From Actinomycetes bacterium (GTDB lineage Bacteria > Actinomycetota > Acidimicrobiia > Acidimicrobiales > JAKAVM01), in the NCBI GenBank assembly GCA_021817065.1, contig JAKAWH010000005.1, positions 1 through 60,811 of the forward strand: a stretch of 60,811 bases of DNA, written 5' to 3'. Positions 35,761-42,851 of the stretch are shown piece after piece. The translations under genes were made by a program, and so were the position numbers. Below the pieces are notes generated by a model that was not told the DNA's origin, did not search any database, and saw nothing but the letters and a program-made list of their open reading frames with translations. Position 1 is the first letter of the stretch, and the number at the start of each line of letters is the position of its first letter.

Positions 35761-38652
35761 CTAGGCCCGGGCGATCTCGCGCTCCTCGAACGTCTCGATG
35801 ATGTCGCCTTCCTTGAGGTCCTGGAAATCCGAAAGACCGACACCGCATTCGAACCCGCTCTGCACCTCCCGAGCATCGTCCTTGAAGCGGCGAAGGGATG
35901 CCACCGCGCCCTTCCAAATGATGACCCCGTCCCGAAGGAAGCGAACCCGTGACCCTCGAGTGATCGTCCCGTTGCGCACGTAACAACCCGCAACCGCCCC
36001 GACCCGAGGAATGCGGAACACGGCACGTACTTCGGCCTCACCGGTAACCACTTCTTCGAACTCGGGTTTGAGCATACCCACCAGCGCCGCTTCGATGTCC
36101 TCAAGAACCTTGTAGACCACTTCGTAAGTGCGAATGTCGACCTGCTGTGCCTGCGCGGCTTCCCGCGAGCGACGATCGGGCCTCACATTAAACCCGATGA
36201 TGGTCGCACCAGAAGCAGCAGCGAGCCCGACGTCGTTCTCGGTGATTCCTCCCACCGCACGGTGCACGAAAGAGATCTTGACCTCGTCGCGCTCCAACTT
36301 GCGGAGAGAGTCGGTCAGCGCCTCGAGCGAGCCCTGGACGTCCGCCTTGAGGATGAGGTTGAGGGTGGCTGTTTCTCCGCGACTCACCTGCTCGAAAAGG
36401 TCCTCCAAGCGCACGGCGCCCGCCGACGGTACCGGAGCATGCCCCATCGAACGGAGGCGCCGTTCGCGGGTCTCTGCAATGGTTCGGGCGGTTGACTGGT
36501 CGGCGACAACCCGAAACTCGTCACCCGCGCTGGGAACGGTCGAAAGACCAAGCACCACGGCAGGAGAAGATGGATGCACCTCCTTGACGTGCGAGCCGGT
36601 CTCGTCGAGGAGGGCCTTCACTTTGCCCCACGCAGGACCTGCAACCATGACGTCGCCCGGAGCGAGGATGCCCTTCTGCACGATGACGGTGGCGACCGGG
36701 CCGCGGCCAACATCGAGATTGGCCTCCAGGACAACACCGCGGGCGTTCCCGACTGGGACCGCGGTGAGCTCGGCTATCTCGGCGACGAGGAGGATGTGCT
36801 CGAGTAGCTCGTCGACGCCCAAACCCTCTGGCGCAGCCACCTCCAACGTCACAGTGTCTCCGCCCCAGTTCTCGGGCACCAGTCCCTGTTCCGAAAGCTG
36901 CTGCATCACCCGATTGGGGTCGGCATCGGGACGATCGACTTTGGTGAGGGCGACGACGATGGGGACTTCTGCGGCCCGCGCATGGTTGATGGCTTCGACG
37001 GTCTGGGGCATCACCCCGTCGTCCGCAGCCACGACAAGGACGACGATGTCGGTGACTTGCGCCCCACGAGCCCGCATGGCAGTGAAAGCCTCATGTCCTG
37101 GTGTGTCGATAAAGGTGATCTGCCTGCCAGCGTGCATCACTTGGTAGGCGCCGACGTGCTGGGTGATCCCACCCGCTTCTCCGAGAGCGACCGCTGTGTT
37201 GCGGATCCGGTCGAGAAGGGTCGTCTTGCCGTGATCTACGTGGCCCATCACGGTGACAACGGGCGGCCGCGGCATCGGTTGGCCCATCTCCTCCTCTTCT
37301 TCGACGCTCTCGAAGTACTTGGCCGCCAGCAACGCTTCTTGCTCTTCGCCCGGATCGACCAGGCGCACCTCGGCCCCAATCTCAGCAGCGAACAACTCGA
37401 TCATCTCGTCGGTAAGCGACTGGGTGGCGGTGACCATCTCCCCCTGGAGGAGGAGGAAACGAATCACGTCTCCGGGCGAACGATTCACTTTGGGCCCCAG
37501 GACTTGAGCGGTCGTACCGCGCTCGACGATCAACTCCCCCTCGGGAACCGGAGCGTTAGAGGGTACGTAGGAGACTGTGAGCTGGGTCGGCTCTAGCTCC
37601 TCCAAGTTGCGCCGGCGGCGACGTGAACGCGATCGGGCAGGTGGCCGGCCCCGCGACGGGGGTCCGCCCCTGCCGCCCGGGCCCCCACCGGGACCTCCGC
37701 CAGGACCTCCTCCAGACGGCCTCTGACCGGTTCGTACGCCCGCAGCCCCCGGCGAGGAGCTCGCCGATCCACCCGAACGGGCGAGCTGTCCGGGAGTGAG
37801 GAAACGCCTGGGAGCTCCCGGCCTATCGGTGCGCGGTGCCCCCGACGGGCCACCTGGCCGTGCCGGAGCCCGCGGCCCGCGGGCTCCGGGAGGCGGAGGG
37901 ATCGGCTTTCCCGACGGAGAAAGAGGACGACCGGGAGGCGGAGGGATCGGCTTGCCCGACGGAGAAAGAGGACGACCGGGCGCGTCGGAACCCACTCGGG
38001 CTGCCGGCAGCTCCGGTGGCGCTCCCAGTCTCCCGGCAGGCTTGCCAGTCGGTCCCGTCGGTCCCGTCGGCCTCGGAGGAGGTCCGGCGGCGGGAGGTGC
38101 CGGACGGGAAACCTTCGGCTCCGGGGGACGTTCAGCGGTCTGGGGAGGATGGGGACCGCTGACTGGCCGGCTGGCCGGGCGGAGAGTGGGCGTCGGGCTT
38201 GGTGACTGTTCAATTCGGGCCGGCACTTCTGGGGCCGAAACGGCCTTGGCCGCAGGAGCAAGTCGCACCGTATCCTCGCCCGGCGTGCTGGATGGGGCAC
38301 GCTCGGATATTCCTCCGGGGCGTTCGGGGCGCGGTGGCAAACCCGGGGCGGGCAAGGAGGACGGAGGTGCAGCCGGCTTACGGAGCGTCACTCCTGCGGA
38401 TGCCACTCGCGGCGTCTGGGCAGCAGGAGTAACCTCGTCCTCCCGGATCAGAGCTTTGGGTTCCTCGGACTCCACCGGCCGGCGCAGACCATCCGCGTCA
38501 GCCTTGCGGCGAACTCGGTCCGCCTGCGCGTCCTCGATGCTGGACGAGTGGCTCTTGACCCCGATCCCCAGCGCGATGCACAGGTCCAAGGCCTCCTTGT
38601 TGGCGAGGCCGAGCTCGCGCGCCAGTTCGTAGACACGAATCTTCTTGGCCAA
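35761..38652 (-). CDS. infB: Translation initiation factor IF-2
   Basis: GTPase that delivers initiator tRNA, 963 residues. Residues 1-60 are an IF2-N domain (MAKKIRVYELARELGLANKE). Residues 60-340 form a long Pro/Gly/Arg-rich linker that contains a 15-residue tandem duplication. The G domain has VMGHVDHGKTTLLD, EAGGITQHVGAYQV, DTPGHEAF and TKVDRPDADP, followed by domains II-IV ending FEEREIARA. The linker is common in actinobacteria, but composition and repeats vary. It begins 3 bases after the nusA stop, leaving no room for ylxR, which usually sits there. Confidence 0.97.
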   Translation of the reverse strand: MAKKIRVYELARELGLANKEALDLCIALGIGVKSHSSSIEDAQADRVRRKADADGLRRPVESEEPKALIREDEVTPAAQTPRVASAGVTLRKPAAPPSSLPAPGLPPRPERPGGISERAPSSTPGEDTVRLAPAAKAVSAPEVPARIEQSPSPTPTLRPASRPVSGPHPPQTAERPPEPKVSRPAPPAAGPPPRPTGPTGPTGKPAGRLGAPPELPAARVGSDAPGRPLSPSGKPIPPPPGRPLSPSGKPIPPPPGARGPRAPARPGGPSGAPRTDRPGAPRRFLTPGQLARSGGSASSSPGAAGVRTGQRPSGGGPGGGPGGGPGGRGGPPSRGRPPARSRSRRRRRNLEELEPTQLTVSYVPSNAPVPEGELIVERGTTAQVLGPKVNRSPGDVIRFLLLQGEMVTATQSLTDEMIELFAAEIGAEVRLVDPGEEQEALLAAKYFESVEEEEEMGQPMPRPPVVTVMGHVDHGKTTLLDRIRNTAVALGEAGGITQHVGAYQVMHAGRQITFIDTPGHEAFTAMRARGAQVTDIVVLVVAADDGVMPQTVEAINHARAAEVPIVVALTKVDRPDADPNRVMQQLSEQGLVPENWGGDTVTLEVAAPEGLGVDELLEHILLVAEIAELTAVPVGNARGVVLEANLDVGRGPVATVIVQKGILAPGDVMVAGPAWGKVKALLDETGSHVKEVHPSSPAVVLGLSTVPSAGDEFRVVADQSTARTIAETRERRLRSMGHAPVPSAGAVRLEDLFEQVSRGETATLNLILKADVQGSLEALTDSLRKLERDEVKISFVHRAVGGITENDVGLAAASGATIIGFNVRPDRRSREAAQAQQVDIRTYEVVYKVLEDIEAALVGMLKPEFEEVVTGEAEVRAVFRIPRVGAVAGCYVRNGTITRGSRVRFLRDGVIIWKGAVASLRRFKDDAREVQSGFECGVGLSDFQDLKEGDIIETFEEREIARA
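37888..37977 (-). repeat. 45-bp tandem duplication in the infB linker
   Basis: Two adjacent 45-bp copies (37888-37932 and 37933-37977) differ at one base by eye and encode GRPLSPSGKPIPPPP twice. High identity shows a recent duplication in the disordered N-terminal linker. Confidence 0.9.
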
Positions 38653-38655
38653 GGA

Positions 38656-39933
38656 TTAACCCAGTCCTTCCTCGGTGGCCTCCTCTTTGCCGAGCTTCCC
38701 GACGCTCGCATCACCTACTACTGCGACGACTTCCTTGTCACCGCCGTCCGACCCGCCCGGAGACAAAGCCATAGCATCGCCGGCGGGCACGACTGCCTCG
38801 CCGGCTTCCGGTGCCGCCTTAGCCGACATCGCCGACCATTCCTCCGCAGAGACGGTCTCGCCCCCTTCCGCCGACTTCCATACCATCTCCCCCGCCTCGT
38901 TCTGCACCCATTCGCCTTCTGCCCACTCGTCCGAAGCGAAGCCGGAGTCCTCGTCGGCAAGCTGAGTCTCGCTCTTGATATCGATGCGCCACCCGGTCAG
39001 GCGGGCGGCAAGCCGGGCGTTCTGGCCTTCCTTGCCGATCGCCAATGAGAGCTGGAAATCGTGGACGATGGCCGAAGCGGTCCCCGTCTCCTCATCCAGC
39101 CTCACTTCCTTCACTTTGGCTGGTTGAAGGGCCCGAGCCACGAACTCCGCCGGATCGTCCGAGAAGGGGACTATGTCGACCTTCTCTCCGCGCAGCTCGT
39201 TGGTGACCATTCGGACCCGGCCACCGCGGGCGCCTACACAGGCCCCCACCGGGTCGACGTTGGGATCGGTCGACCATACAGCGATCTTGGTGCGGTGCCC
39301 GGGCTCTCGCGCACATGCCTTGATCTCCACCACGCCCCCGGCGATCTCCGGGACCTCCAGTTCGAAGAGCCTCTTGATGAGCCCTGGGTGGGTCCGGCTC
39401 ACCACGATCTGGGGACCCTTCGCGGTCTTGCGCACCTCCACGATGTACGCCTTGAGGCGCGAGCCGTGCTCATAGTGTTCGTGGGGGACCTGCTCGGCCT
39501 GGGGTAGGAGCGCCTCCACCTTGCCAAGGTCGAGCAAGGTGTAGCGATTGTCACTCTGCTGGATGATCCCGGTAACGATGTCGCCTTCGCGCCCGGCGTA
39601 CTCCTCGTACTTGAGGTCCCGTTCCGCCTCGCGGATCCGCTGGAGGATGACCTGCTTGGCTGTCTGGGCGGCAATCCGGCCGAAATCGTCCGGGGTGTCG
39701 TCCCATTCGCGCACCACGTTGCCGTCGTCGTCCAACTCCTGGCCGTACACCCGGATCTCGCCGCTCTCCGGGTCGATGGTGACCACCGCCTCCTCGGCCG
39801 CATTGGGCGTCCGCTTGTAGGCAGCCACCAGTGCATTGGCGAGGGCATCGAGGAGGGTGTCGACGGCAATGCCCTTGTCCCGGGCCACTTGACCGAGCGC
39901 TTCGAGGAACTCGAAATTCTCTCTTGCCATCAT
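38656..39933 (-). CDS. nusA: Transcription termination/antitermination factor NusA
   Basis: RNA polymerase-binding elongation factor of 425 residues. It has an N-terminal domain ([20 protein letters not shown]), an S1 domain ([20 protein letters not shown]), and two KH domains ([40 protein letters not shown]). An acidic C-terminal tail of about 85 residues is not the AR-repeat form of gammaproteobacteria. GAGGAGG precedes two adjacent ATGs (39933 and 39930); the second has better spacing. The leader carries a perfect intrinsic terminator. rimP, normally upstream, is absent, so nusA leads the operon. Confidence 0.95.
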
Positions 39934-39951
39934 TCACCTCCTCTTATACGT

Positions 39952-39976
39952 AAAAAACGTGGGCATAGGCCCACGT
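39952..39976 (-). terminator. Intrinsic terminator in the nusA leader (candidate attenuator)
   Basis: On the minus strand ACGTGGGC-CTAT-GCCCACGT is a perfect 8-bp stem with a 4-base loop, followed immediately by a run of Ts. It lies about 20 bases before the nusA start and just ahead of the Shine-Dalgarno. No minus-strand gene lies upstream, since the neighbour thpR is on the plus strand, so the element can only act on transcripts starting in the nusA leader. A second small hairpin (GTCGT-TGC-ACGAC, 39975-39987) directly precedes it. Confidence 0.8.
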
Positions 39977-40017
39977 CGTGCAACGACACCGTAGGTAGGA
40001 CTCGACGTCCGGTCGTG

Positions 40018-40023
40018 ATTATA
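40018..40023 (-). promoter_or_regulatory. -10 box TATAAT for the nusA-infB operon
   Basis: A perfect TATAAT on the minus strand, placed so that transcription would begin near 40011 and give a leader of about 78 bases containing both hairpins. The matching -35 region is weak. Confidence 0.55.
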
Positions 40024-40037
40024 GCTAAAGCTGTGGG

Positions 40038-40547
40038 GTGCGTCTTTTCGTGGCGATTTGGCCGGGCCAGCCTACCCGGGATGCCCTTGCCCGCCTGGCT
40101 CTCCCCCAGGTCACCGGGATCAGCCGGACTGCTCCCGCCAACCTCCACGCCACCCTAAGGTTCATCGGAGAACCGCCTGGTCCGCCCGAGGCAGTCATCG
40201 CCGCCCTGAGAACGGTGAGGGTGGATCGATCGCCCACCGTGATCGTAGGGCCCTCCACGTGCTGGATCGGCCGGTATGCCCTTTGCCTCCCCGCCGGTGG
40301 CCTCGACCCTCTTGCCGGGGAGTTAGACCGTGTACTCGCCGATATCGGGATAGGGCCGCGCCCCGAGCGGTTTCTCGGCCACATCACAATCGCCCGGGCG
40401 CGGAGAAACGCCCCGGAAAGCGTTCTGGGTACGCTGGTGGACCTGCCTTTCGACTCCCGATTCCCCGCCCGGACCTTCGACCTGGTCAACTCGATGCCCT
40501 CACCAGTGGGACCGACCTACGAGTCGGTTGCGACTTTCCGGATCTGA
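40038..40547 (+). CDS. thpR: RNA 2',3'-cyclic phosphodiesterase ThpR (2H phosphoesterase, LigT-like)
   Basis: Hydrolyses 2',3'-cyclic phosphate ends of RNA. The 169-residue protein carries the two His-x-Thr motifs of the 2H family, HATLRFIG and HITIARARR. The N-terminus MRLFVAIWPGQPTRDAL is typical. The start is GTG at 40038. It diverges from nusA and lies upstream of three PilZ genes on the same strand. Confidence 0.93.
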   Translation: MRLFVAIWPGQPTRDALARLALPQVTGISRTAPANLHATLRFIGEPPGPPEAVIAALRTVRVDRSPTVIVGPSTCWIGRYALCLPAGGLDPLAGELDRVLADIGIGPRPERFLGHITIARARRNAPESVLGTLVDLPFDSRFPARTFDLVNSMPSPVGPTYESVATFRI

Positions 40548-40600
40548 GCGGGTGACCGCCCTATGCTTGCCACGACCGAGGACGAGACTTGGGGGATGAC

Positions 40601-41146
40601 GTGAGCGACATCACACCGCACGCACCGATGGACAAGAACGATCCCCGTGGCGAAATTCGCATCGGCTTCCCGGGTCCTTCCTCGCCGCCCGATCTGGGGA
40701 ACCGCACCGGCCGTATACCCGAGTCGGAGCCGGAGCAAGAAGCGGACAAGGAGGCGCCGGCCGAGCGGCGCCGGTTCATCCGGGTTGCCAAGCCGGTCGA
40801 CTTCGAATTGCGGTACCTCGACAGGCCTTTGGCGGCATCGATGATCGACATCTCGGAGGGAGGAATGCGGTGCCGGGTCGAACCTGGCGAGGAGTTCGAC
40901 CCGGAGAAGGTAGTCCGGGCCCGGGTCGACCTCGGTGATGGGAACCTGGAGGTGCGTGGACTGGTCTCGTGGGAAAAGATGCTCGACGGCTCCACCGAAG
41001 TGGGGGTTGGCTTCGTCGGGCTCACCGAACGCGAGAGCCAGAGGATCCGCAGCCACGGATTCGTCCTCCAGATCGCCCAGCGGCGGGCAGAGAGCAGCCA
41101 TCACGTCCACCACCACCGGTCTGCTCACTCAGGCCGGCGCCGCTGA
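40601..41146 (+). CDS. PilZ domain protein 1 (c-di-GMP receptor candidate, short form)
   Basis: Protein of 181 residues with a disordered acidic N-terminus (about 1-48) and one PilZ domain. The c-di-GMP motif is complete: RRRFIRVAKPVDFELRY then MIDISEGGMRCRV, matching RxxxR and D/N-x-S-x-x-G. The C-terminus is His/Arg-rich. GTG 40601 is chosen over TTG 40589 because GGGGG lies just upstream at usable spacing. It lacks the YcgR-like N-terminal domain of its two neighbours. Effector output is unknown. Confidence 0.85.
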   Translation: MSDITPHAPMDKNDPRGEIRIGFPGPSSPPDLGNRTGRIPESEPEQEADKEAPAERRRFIRVAKPVDFELRYLDRPLAASMIDISEGGMRCRVEPGEEFDPEKVVRARVDLGDGNLEVRGLVSWEKMLDGSTEVGVGFVGLTERESQRIRSHGFVLQIAQRRAESSHHVHHHRSAHSGRRR

Positions 41147-41203
41147 TCCCGGGGCCCCGTGCCCGCCCGGGCGGCATTTATCGGCATCTCCCCGGAAAAA
41201 GTT

Positions 41204-41215
41204 AAGAAATTTCTT
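41204..41215. promoter_or_regulatory. 12-bp palindrome AAGAAATTTCTT upstream of PilZ gene 2
   Basis: A perfect AT-rich palindrome centred about 40 bases before the PilZ-2 ATG and about 26 bases before its -10 box, in an otherwise GC-rich region. It may be an operator or UP-like element. Function is inferred. Confidence 0.4.
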
Positions 41216-41235
41216 CCGATTTCCTGGATCTCCTG

Positions 41236-41241
41236 TAAAAT
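41236..41241 (+). promoter_or_regulatory. -10 box TAAAAT, 8 bases before the PilZ-2 ATG
   Basis: TAAAAT-CACTTCCC-ATG has leaderless spacing, and no Shine-Dalgarno precedes the ATG. A weak TTCCGA lies 16 bases upstream as a possible -35. Confidence 0.5.
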
Positions 41242-41249
41242 CACTTCCC

Positions 41250-42029
41250 ATGGGAATCTGGGGAGTAGGGCGTGCGCGTCGTGTGCGCACGGGGAAGGTC
41301 AAGACCAAGGTGCTCCGACCTACTCGCGGCCCTTCGCGCCCCGGCAGCCGAACTGGCGCTGCTCGGACCCGACCGGTTCCCTTCGGCCTCACAGGAAGAG
41401 CCAAGTATTACCGGTGGCCCGAGATCGGTCGTACTGTCCAGGTATTTCTGAGCGGTGAGACCACACCGCTTCCTGCTCGGATCCTGGAGCACGATACCTC
41501 CGGGGACTGTATCGTGGTTAGTGCCCCGGGCGGGCGGGGCGAAGGCGCGGTGATCGCGGAACCGGGCGACAAGGTGGCACTCACCTGGGTGCTTCCCGAA
41601 GGGGTCGCCAAGCTGGAAACGGCCTTTCTCTCATGGACGGTCGACACCACCTCCAAGCCCTCCGCATGGAGACTCGAACCGGCATCCGACGTCCAGATCA
41701 TCGAACGGCGGCGCCACCGCCGCCTTCGAGCGCGCCAGAACGTTGCCCTGCGCAGCCGGGACGTGGCCATCCCCGGGGTGATGGTCGACATCTCGGAAGG
41801 AGGCATGCGATGCCTGGTCGACACCATCACTCCCTCCAAACTCACCCGGGACCGGGTGCAATCGACCGTAACGGTACGCGGCAGGCGAATGGGTGTGCAG
41901 GGGCTGGTTACCTGGAGCAAGCACCACGGCGGCCATGTCGAGGTGGGAATAGCGTTCGATCGCCTGAGGAAACAGGATGTCGAGGCACTCCGCGCCCATG
42001 TCCGCACATCGATGTCGGTGCCTGCCTAA
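41250..42029 (+). CDS. PilZ domain protein 2 (YcgR-like N-terminal domain plus PilZ)
   Basis: Protein of 259 residues. A basic N-terminus (1-50) precedes a YcgR-like beta domain (about 55-135, VQVFLSGETTPLPARILEHD) and then a PilZ domain with RRRHRRLRARQNVALR and VMVDISEGGMRCLV. The motif DISEGGMRC is also nearly identical at DNA level in PilZ gene 1, showing duplication. In YcgR the N-terminal domain contacts partner proteins and PilZ binds c-di-GMP. No flagellar or pilus gene is nearby. Confidence 0.87.
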   Translation: MGIWGVGRARRVRTGKVKTKVLRPTRGPSRPGSRTGAARTRPVPFGLTGRAKYYRWPEIGRTVQVFLSGETTPLPARILEHDTSGDCIVVSAPGGRGEGAVIAEPGDKVALTWVLPEGVAKLETAFLSWTVDTTSKPSAWRLEPASDVQIIERRRHRRLRARQNVALRSRDVAIPGVMVDISEGGMRCLVDTITPSKLTRDRVQSTVTVRGRRMGVQGLVTWSKHHGGHVEVGIAFDRLRKQDVEALRAHVRTSMSVPA

Positions 42030-42114
42030 GAGGACCGGCACGCACCACGGGGGGGACCGGGAATCGACCGATGGTCCGCGCGTGTTTTTCCAAGCACGCG
42101 GCGAATCCACGCGG

Positions 42115-42120
42115 TATCAT
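42115..42120 (+). promoter_or_regulatory. -10 box TATCAT, 8 bases before the PilZ-3 ATG
   Basis: TATCAT-CGGCGCCG-ATG, with no Shine-Dalgarno. A hairpin (CGCGTG...CACGCG) lies just upstream between the two PilZ genes. The gene seems to have its own leaderless promoter. Confidence 0.45.
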
Positions 42121-42128
42121 CGGCGCCG

Positions 42129-42851
42129 ATGGCTTTTGGAAAGGCCAGCAGGCCTGCTGAGGGGGGGAACTCCGCCAATTCCGGCGCTCCGGGAGATTCT
42201 CCGAGAGTCAAGATCCCTGCCGCACGTCCGGCCGACTGGCCCTCGATCAACACCGAGATCGTAATCGTCCTCCCGCGAGATGGGGGGGTGTTCCGGACCC
42301 GGGTGAGCGAACACGACCGCGTCAACGGCCAGTTCCTGCTCATCGCGCCGGAATCCGCCGTGGAGGACCTAAGAGCCACTCCGGGCGAGAAGATGATGGC
42401 AACCTGGACCACCTCGGCGGGACTCCACGAGCTCAAGACCGAGCTGGTCGACACCGAGGGCGAGGGTGTCCAGTGGAAGGTCGAGCCCACCTCCCCGGTG
42501 ATCGTCCACGAGCGGAGACGCTTCCCCCGGGTACGGCGAACCGGGGCCATCAAACTGGAGGCCGGAACCCGGGCGATAAGCGCTACCATGCTCGACCTCT
42601 CCGAGGGTGGTGCTCGCTGCGTCGTCGACACCACTCAGCAGGTTCCCCCCGATATGGTCTCAACTACCCTAAACCTGGACAACAAGGCGATCAAGATCAA
42701 GGGCTGGGTGGCCTGGAAGAAGCAGCACGGCAAGCACACTGAGATCGGAGTGTCATTCGCCGGCGTGTCGAAGAAGGACGCCGAGATCCTCCGCCGCTAC
42801 GTGATGGCCCTCAACTCCGTCCAGAGCCGCAAGGCGGAAAGCCCCACCTAA
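42129..42851 (+). CDS. PilZ domain protein 3 (YcgR-like N-terminal domain plus PilZ)
   Basis: Protein of 240 residues with the same layout as PilZ protein 2: an N-terminal beta domain (TEIVIVLPRDGGVFRTRVSE) and a PilZ domain (RRRFPRVRRTGAIKLEA, then MLDLSEGGARCVV), both c-di-GMP motifs intact. The C-terminal half GWVAWKKQHGKHTEIGVSFA parallels GLVTWSKHHGGHVEVGIAFD of protein 2. It is convergent with ispG; the 67-base gap between them shows no clear terminator. Confidence 0.87.
   Translation: MAFGKASRPAEGGNSANSGAPGDSPRVKIPAARPADWPSINTEIVIVLPRDGGVFRTRVSEHDRVNGQFLLIAPESAVEDLRATPGEKMMATWTTSAGLHELKTELVDTEGEGVQWKVEPTSPVIVHERRRFPRVRRTGAIKLEAGTRAISATMLDLSEGGARCVVDTTQQVPPDMVSTTLNLDNKAIKIKGWVAWKKQHGKHTEIGVSFAGVSKKDAEILRRYVMALNSVQSRKAESPT

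Follow-up and report, generated by a model that had tools for sequence, protein, structure and literature searches.

A terminator-like hairpin ahead of nusA in Acidimicrobiia, most likely a conserved premature transcription stop signal that is retained where rimP is missing

The window analyzed here, the whole 60.8-kb stretch of DNA (60,811 nucleotides), carries nusA (38656..39933, minus strand; NusA_N, S1, and KH_5 domains) as the first gene of an operon in which infB (35761..38652, minus strand) follows directly 3', with no ylxR between them. The order nusA-infB-rbfA-truB-ribF given in the initial annotation is borne out by Pfam. There are two candidate ATGs for nusA, at 39933 and 39930, and the second is probably the start, as it is favored by spacing and homology; the alignments of many NusA homologs begin at residue 2 or later. 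The ribosome-binding site GGAGGTGA (39934..39941, minus strand) lies outside the hairpin that is the subject of this report, and two genomes of the same family (G002 and G003) conserve GAGGAGGTGA at this site. Upstream of the operon, a LigT/ThpR-like gene (40038..40547) is encoded on the plus strand, divergent from nusA, and beyond it three PilZ-domain proteins are encoded in succession on that strand (40589-42851).

The leader of the operon contains a hairpin and T-run that together occupy 39952-39977 on the same strand as nusA. The putative terminator stem-loop, ACGTGGGC-CTAT-GCCCACGT (39957..39976, minus strand), is evident in the sequence and is matched by a covariance model; its 5' arm lies at 39976-39969 and its 3' arm at 39964-39957, forming a perfect stem of 8 bp that a flanking G·U pair (39977/39956) extends to nine pairs. 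The T-run, U6 in the RNA (39952..39957, minus strand), begins with a T that also closes the stem. The predicted folding energy is -15.0 kcal/mol for the hairpin with its U-tract and -13.6 for the bare 8-bp stem-loop, and the distance from the hairpin to nusA is 18 nt to the first ATG or 21 nt to the second. A perfect 8-bp stem with a T-run facing nusA had been reported from the first reading of this DNA, and the sequence agrees: under a strict test (a perfect stem of at least 8 pairs, then at least 5 T in 6), this is the sole such site on either strand of the window, and 20 dinucleotide shuffles of the window gave none. A generic terminator scan also places this hairpin first. That scan is loose, with 7 sites in the window versus 5.9 in shuffles, and the strict test is therefore the informative one. 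It is also clear that the hairpin is not a gene-end terminator, as the initial annotation had argued, since the upstream neighbor at 40038-40547 is divergent and leaves nothing upstream to terminate.

Upstream of the hairpin, the TATAAT box claimed earlier is present at 40023-40018 on the minus strand, and similar boxes occur in relatives. It is preceded, across a 17-bp spacer, by a weak -35-like hexamer, AAGACG (40041..40046, minus strand), that agrees with TTGACA at 3 of 6 positions; a generic sigma-70 scan did not include the nusA leader promoter in its list. A leader of about 40 nt separates the TATAAT box from the hairpin, and transcription predicted from this box to start near 40011 would yield a transcript of about 60 nt if it ended at the T-run. 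Among 54 leaders of relatives with a TATAAT- or TATACT-like box, the box lies a median of 36 nt ahead of the hairpin arm, and in five leaders lacking rimP, GCTAT is aligned at the -10 position. A GCCGTTCGA-like motif is enriched between the -10 box and the hairpin, just past the predicted start, in the leaders of order relatives, and GTTCGA occurs in 12 of the 54 leaders versus 0.5 expected from shuffles. On the opposite strand, the -10 region (40017-40023) reads ATTATA and may thus double as the -10 box of the divergent LigT/ThpR gene, which begins at 40038; in that case the transcript of this gene would have almost no 5' untranslated stretch.

For the comparison across the order, relatives were picked by NusA similarity alone, and the leader examined was that of whichever gene came first, rimP or, in genomes lacking it, nusA. 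A CGUGG…CC(A/G)CG stem was found in 58 of 63 such leaders, a count in which one genome appears twice and which includes one poor match without a T-run (L017) that was excluded from later counts. The presence of the hairpin in related genomes had been set beforehand as a test, and these leaders answer it in favor of the proposal. The finder seeks CGUGG, so the invariance of the core in the tabulated leaders is partly by construction, whereas the frequency of 58 in 63 is not. Three pairs never vary in an alignment of 60 sequences, a few of these sequences have both bases exchanged at the two loop-side pairs, and the outer pairs show compensatory change, with 51 double-change cells, compared with 9.4 in shuffles and 0-15 when the partners were slid. 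The excess of covariation over both controls supports pairing, and the covariation analysis envisaged for these leaders thus yields outer pairs that covary around an almost fixed core. Across relatives, the loop measures 3-5 nt and the span 16-23, G·U pairs are tolerated, and the 3' flank is T-rich (mean of 5.6 T in 8).

The association with nusA also emerges from a search blind to context. The exact hairpin with its T-run was found in 93 stretches among 84,980 species. Profile searches of the flanking DNA showed 83 of these to precede rimP-nusA or nusA in the same orientation, in Acidimicrobiia, other Actinomycetota, and Chloroflexota. Four of the remaining ten (L117, L125, L138, and L172) are cut off at or near the end of their DNA, and the other six lie near neither rimP nor nusA. 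The near-fixed stem sequence spans some 50 families and two phyla. A covariance model, R1, found one site in the source genome (39944-39981, E=3.5e-5), the palindrome also being matched in antisense. Of the 55 genomes in which R1 matched, 50 have their best site 11-879 nt ahead of nusA in the same orientation (the criterion being at most 900 nt before nusA, same strand), and two further best sites proved on inspection to be rimP leaders, one on a split contig (G032) and one matched in antisense (G028), such that the best match is the rimP/nusA leader in 52 of 59 relatives. Because many of these leaders went into the training of R1, it is the near-uniqueness per genome, rather than the scores, that is independent. 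Applied to Dehalococcoidia and to actinobacterial classes other than Acidimicrobiia, the Acidimicrobiia-trained model gave weak matches, of which some but not all lay at rimP/nusA. The earlier proposal of an attenuator in the nusA operon leader therefore stands on an element that is conserved across the order, present in a second phylum, and found at one site per genome.

An attenuator of this kind is already known. The rimP-leader, described in 2010 as the most ubiquitous attenuator, has an unusual conserved GGGc(...)gCCC terminator stem, no visible antiterminator, and a distance of 4-130 nt from terminator to gene, and NusA was put forward as its regulator (Naville & Gautheret 2010, PMC2965389). 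The element described here likewise lies in the 5' leader of the nusA-infB operon, ahead of rimP in those relatives that have it; the GGGc(...)gCCC stem and T-stretch correspond to ACGTGGGC-CTAT-GCCCACGT-T5, and the 18 or 21 nt to the gene start fall within the published range. In Escherichia coli K-12, GGGCTTTAGGCCC followed by seven T is found ahead of rimP. Unlike the rimP-leader as described, the element stands directly ahead of nusA in the source genome, where rimP is missing, and its conserved stem is longer (CGUGGGC/GCCCACG). When the window stretch and 20 leader loci were compared with Rfam, neither gathering nor relaxed thresholds gave a credible match, and a sub-threshold STnc50 match on the opposite strand was dismissed. 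The Rfam model RF01770, the gammaproteobacterial tandem rimP leader, passed its cut-off in none of 59 genomes, and it is a narrow model, as only 1 of 14 control genomes passed. RF01770 concerns the same operon, and the GGGC…GCCC core recurs in the second of its terminators; the first is of the form CCCg…cGGG with a possible antiterminator, whereas here there is a single hairpin. Within the source family, only G001 (L018) has a second, unrelated hairpin and T-run (GTGCTGACGTGCC…GGCAC-TTTTATTT) after the conserved one, making two tandem terminators before nusA. Since the element agrees with the published general description and not with the Rfam model, it is, judged by its sequence, a variant of the rimP-leader rather than a member of RF01770, distinguished by the loss of rimP, a longer conserved stem, and a wider distribution.

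What is new is that the hairpin persists directly ahead of nusA in lineages with no detectable RimP, namely the whole source family, f1, and 17 Chloroflexota genomes. Almost all order relatives carry rimP ahead of nusA, and RimP was found in 50 of 59 order genomes. In contrast, neither RimP (PF02576) nor YlxR was detectable in any of the four f1 genomes (G000-G003, 81-94% completeness), and the layout in this family is leader-nusA-infB, with the hairpin model match ending 11-15 nt from the nusA match (82 nt in G001). A genome of another family (G011) also lacks rimP and has the hairpin directly ahead of nusA. In family f33, one genome (G035, L023) lacks rimP genome-wide and carries the hairpin 440 nt ahead of nusA, and the stretch from leader to nusA yielded no trace of rimP; in a second genome of that family (G084, L191), no rimP was seen ahead of nusA and the hairpin lies about 300 nt upstream. 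All 17 Chloroflexota genomes have nusA directly 3' of the hairpin and none gave a PF02576 match, which the search did return for two Actinomycetota (G415 and G416); the Chloroflexota may still have a very divergent RimP. Because the hairpin stays ahead of nusA in rimP-less lineages, RimP is needed neither as target nor as sensor: the hairpin follows nusA, and RimP is dispensable in both roles.

Taken with the comparison above, we consider it probable that the hairpin is a transcription attenuator of the rimP-leader type that, rimP having been lost, now directly controls nusA-infB-rbfA-truB-ribF, with NusA most likely raising termination. RNA polymerase would start near 40011 and transcribe about 35 nt, after which the CGUGGGC hairpin would form, then U6, and a fraction of polymerases would stop after about 60 nt, a length that fits the distance from the -10 box to the hairpin and the presence of the T-run. 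NusA on the elongating polymerase would most likely raise termination, such that polymerases would read on into nusA and the downstream translation genes less often when NusA is plentiful and more often when it is scarce. The hairpin, T-run, and promoter-like box are seen directly, as are the single site per genome, the deep conservation of position and stem, and the persistence without rimP; termination itself, its partial extent, and the role of NusA as sensor are what we infer from them. The longest T-run is only 2-3 in 21 of 56 leaders, which would make these weak terminators, and weak or interrupted U-tracts reportedly mark NusA-dependent terminators, the weak ones being those at which NusA counts most. 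In f1 the U-tract is strong (U6), and such a terminator need not depend on NusA. For Bacillus subtilis, a review (PMC12288461) relates that NusA stimulates termination in the leader of its own gene and thereby sets its level (Mondal et al. 2016). The two systems share an intrinsic terminator in the nusA operon leader and an apparent lack of need for an antiterminator, and they differ in that NusA dependence is experimental there and proposed here and in that rimP (ylxS) is present there. NusA is thus a plausible sensor on the strength of the rimP-leader proposal and this precedent, RimP being excluded by the rimP-less lineages.

The initial annotation had also suggested a second hairpin directly ahead of the first as a pause or antiterminator element, and as a general element this is not supported. 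When alternative pairing with the 5' arm was compared with shuffles in 116 leaders, 6 fell at p<0.05, which is about chance (mean z -0.24); this speaks against a general antiterminator, none having been reported for the rimP-leader either. In the source leader itself, the upstream hairpin is weak (GUCG/CGAC or GUG/CAC), and the whole-leader fold is only modestly better than shuffles (z -1.5). A possible antiterminator was found in three f1 species (39970..39995, minus strand), where it would compete for the terminator 5' arm; its candidate parts are CCTACG (39995-39990), GTG (39989-39987), a loop, CAC (39980-39978), a bulge, and CGTGGG (39975-39970). A classical switch in f1, in which CCUACGGUG…CACnnCGUGGG competes with the terminator, could draw on the 11-nt block ACCTACGGTGT, which could pair with the 5' arm and is identical in the source genome, G002, and G003 though the rest of the leader has diverged, and on alternative-pairing z values of -1.2, -2.4, and -2.6 in these three. 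However, these come from three identical helices only, too few for covariation, the block is missing in G001 and G011, the alternative pairing amounts to about 7.5 kcal/mol versus 13.6-15 for the terminator, and the wider set of leaders has no surplus, so that we regard such a switch as very unlikely. Exact matches to CCTACGGTGN6CACNACGTGGGC among 397 order genomes were confined to the same three, and a CCTACGG pattern allowing 3 mismatches gave, beyond these leaders, chance-like matches comparable to a reversed-pattern control.

The attenuator model leaves the near-fixed stem sequence, beyond pairing, unaccounted for, and simple recognition by NusA does not explain it, as RNA binding by purified NusA from Bacillus showed no sequence preference (PMC12691694). 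We tentatively entertain the idea, without holding it to be the likelier case, that CGUGGGC/GCCCACG is a RimP-independent recognition element, conserved in Actinomycetota and Chloroflexota, whose sequence is read by NusA as part of the elongation complex or else by a different dedicated factor. The fixed stem and the unspecific binding of Bacillus NusA would also suit a leader attenuator that senses something other than NusA, such as CspA-type cold-shock RNA chaperones, NusG, or a protein reading the CGUGGG stem, and antitermination by Csp proteins was proposed for the E. coli nusA-infB operon (Bae et al. 2000, as cited in PMC6511841). The data of the E. coli cold-shock study are inconsistent with antitermination, though (PMC6511841), and the B. 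subtilis evidence, as reviewed, indicates NusA (PMC12288461), leaving another factor as an unlikely candidate. It is less probable still that the hairpin is a constitutive damper, a partial terminator setting the operon level or blocking stray transcription without sensing: the f1 hairpin with U6 does resemble a plain strong terminator and no general antiterminator emerged, but a near-fixed stem across so many families and two phyla exceeds what damping needs, and weak U-tracts are common in relatives. Finally, ACGTGGGC/GCCCACGT is palindromic and near the start site, as would be expected if it acted in DNA as a repressor's operator and not as an RNA hairpin; yet the variable loop would rotate the half-sites, G·U pairs are tolerated, and the T-rich flank is directional, lying 3' of the palindrome on the strand of the gene, and we give this reading virtually no weight.

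The nusA leader hairpin is, from its sequence and conservation, most likely a premature transcription stop signal, conserved in Acidimicrobiia and some Chloroflexota, for adjusting the cell's own NusA level. If the stem is indeed read by sequence, this terminator would be regulated in a way that generic intrinsic terminators are not. The range of the rimP-leader attenuator is extended to Acidimicrobiia and some Chloroflexota, the question of why the stem sequence, beyond its pairing, is nearly invariant is sharpened, and the rimP-less lineages that keep the hairpin amount to a natural experiment that leaves nusA-infB as the object of control.
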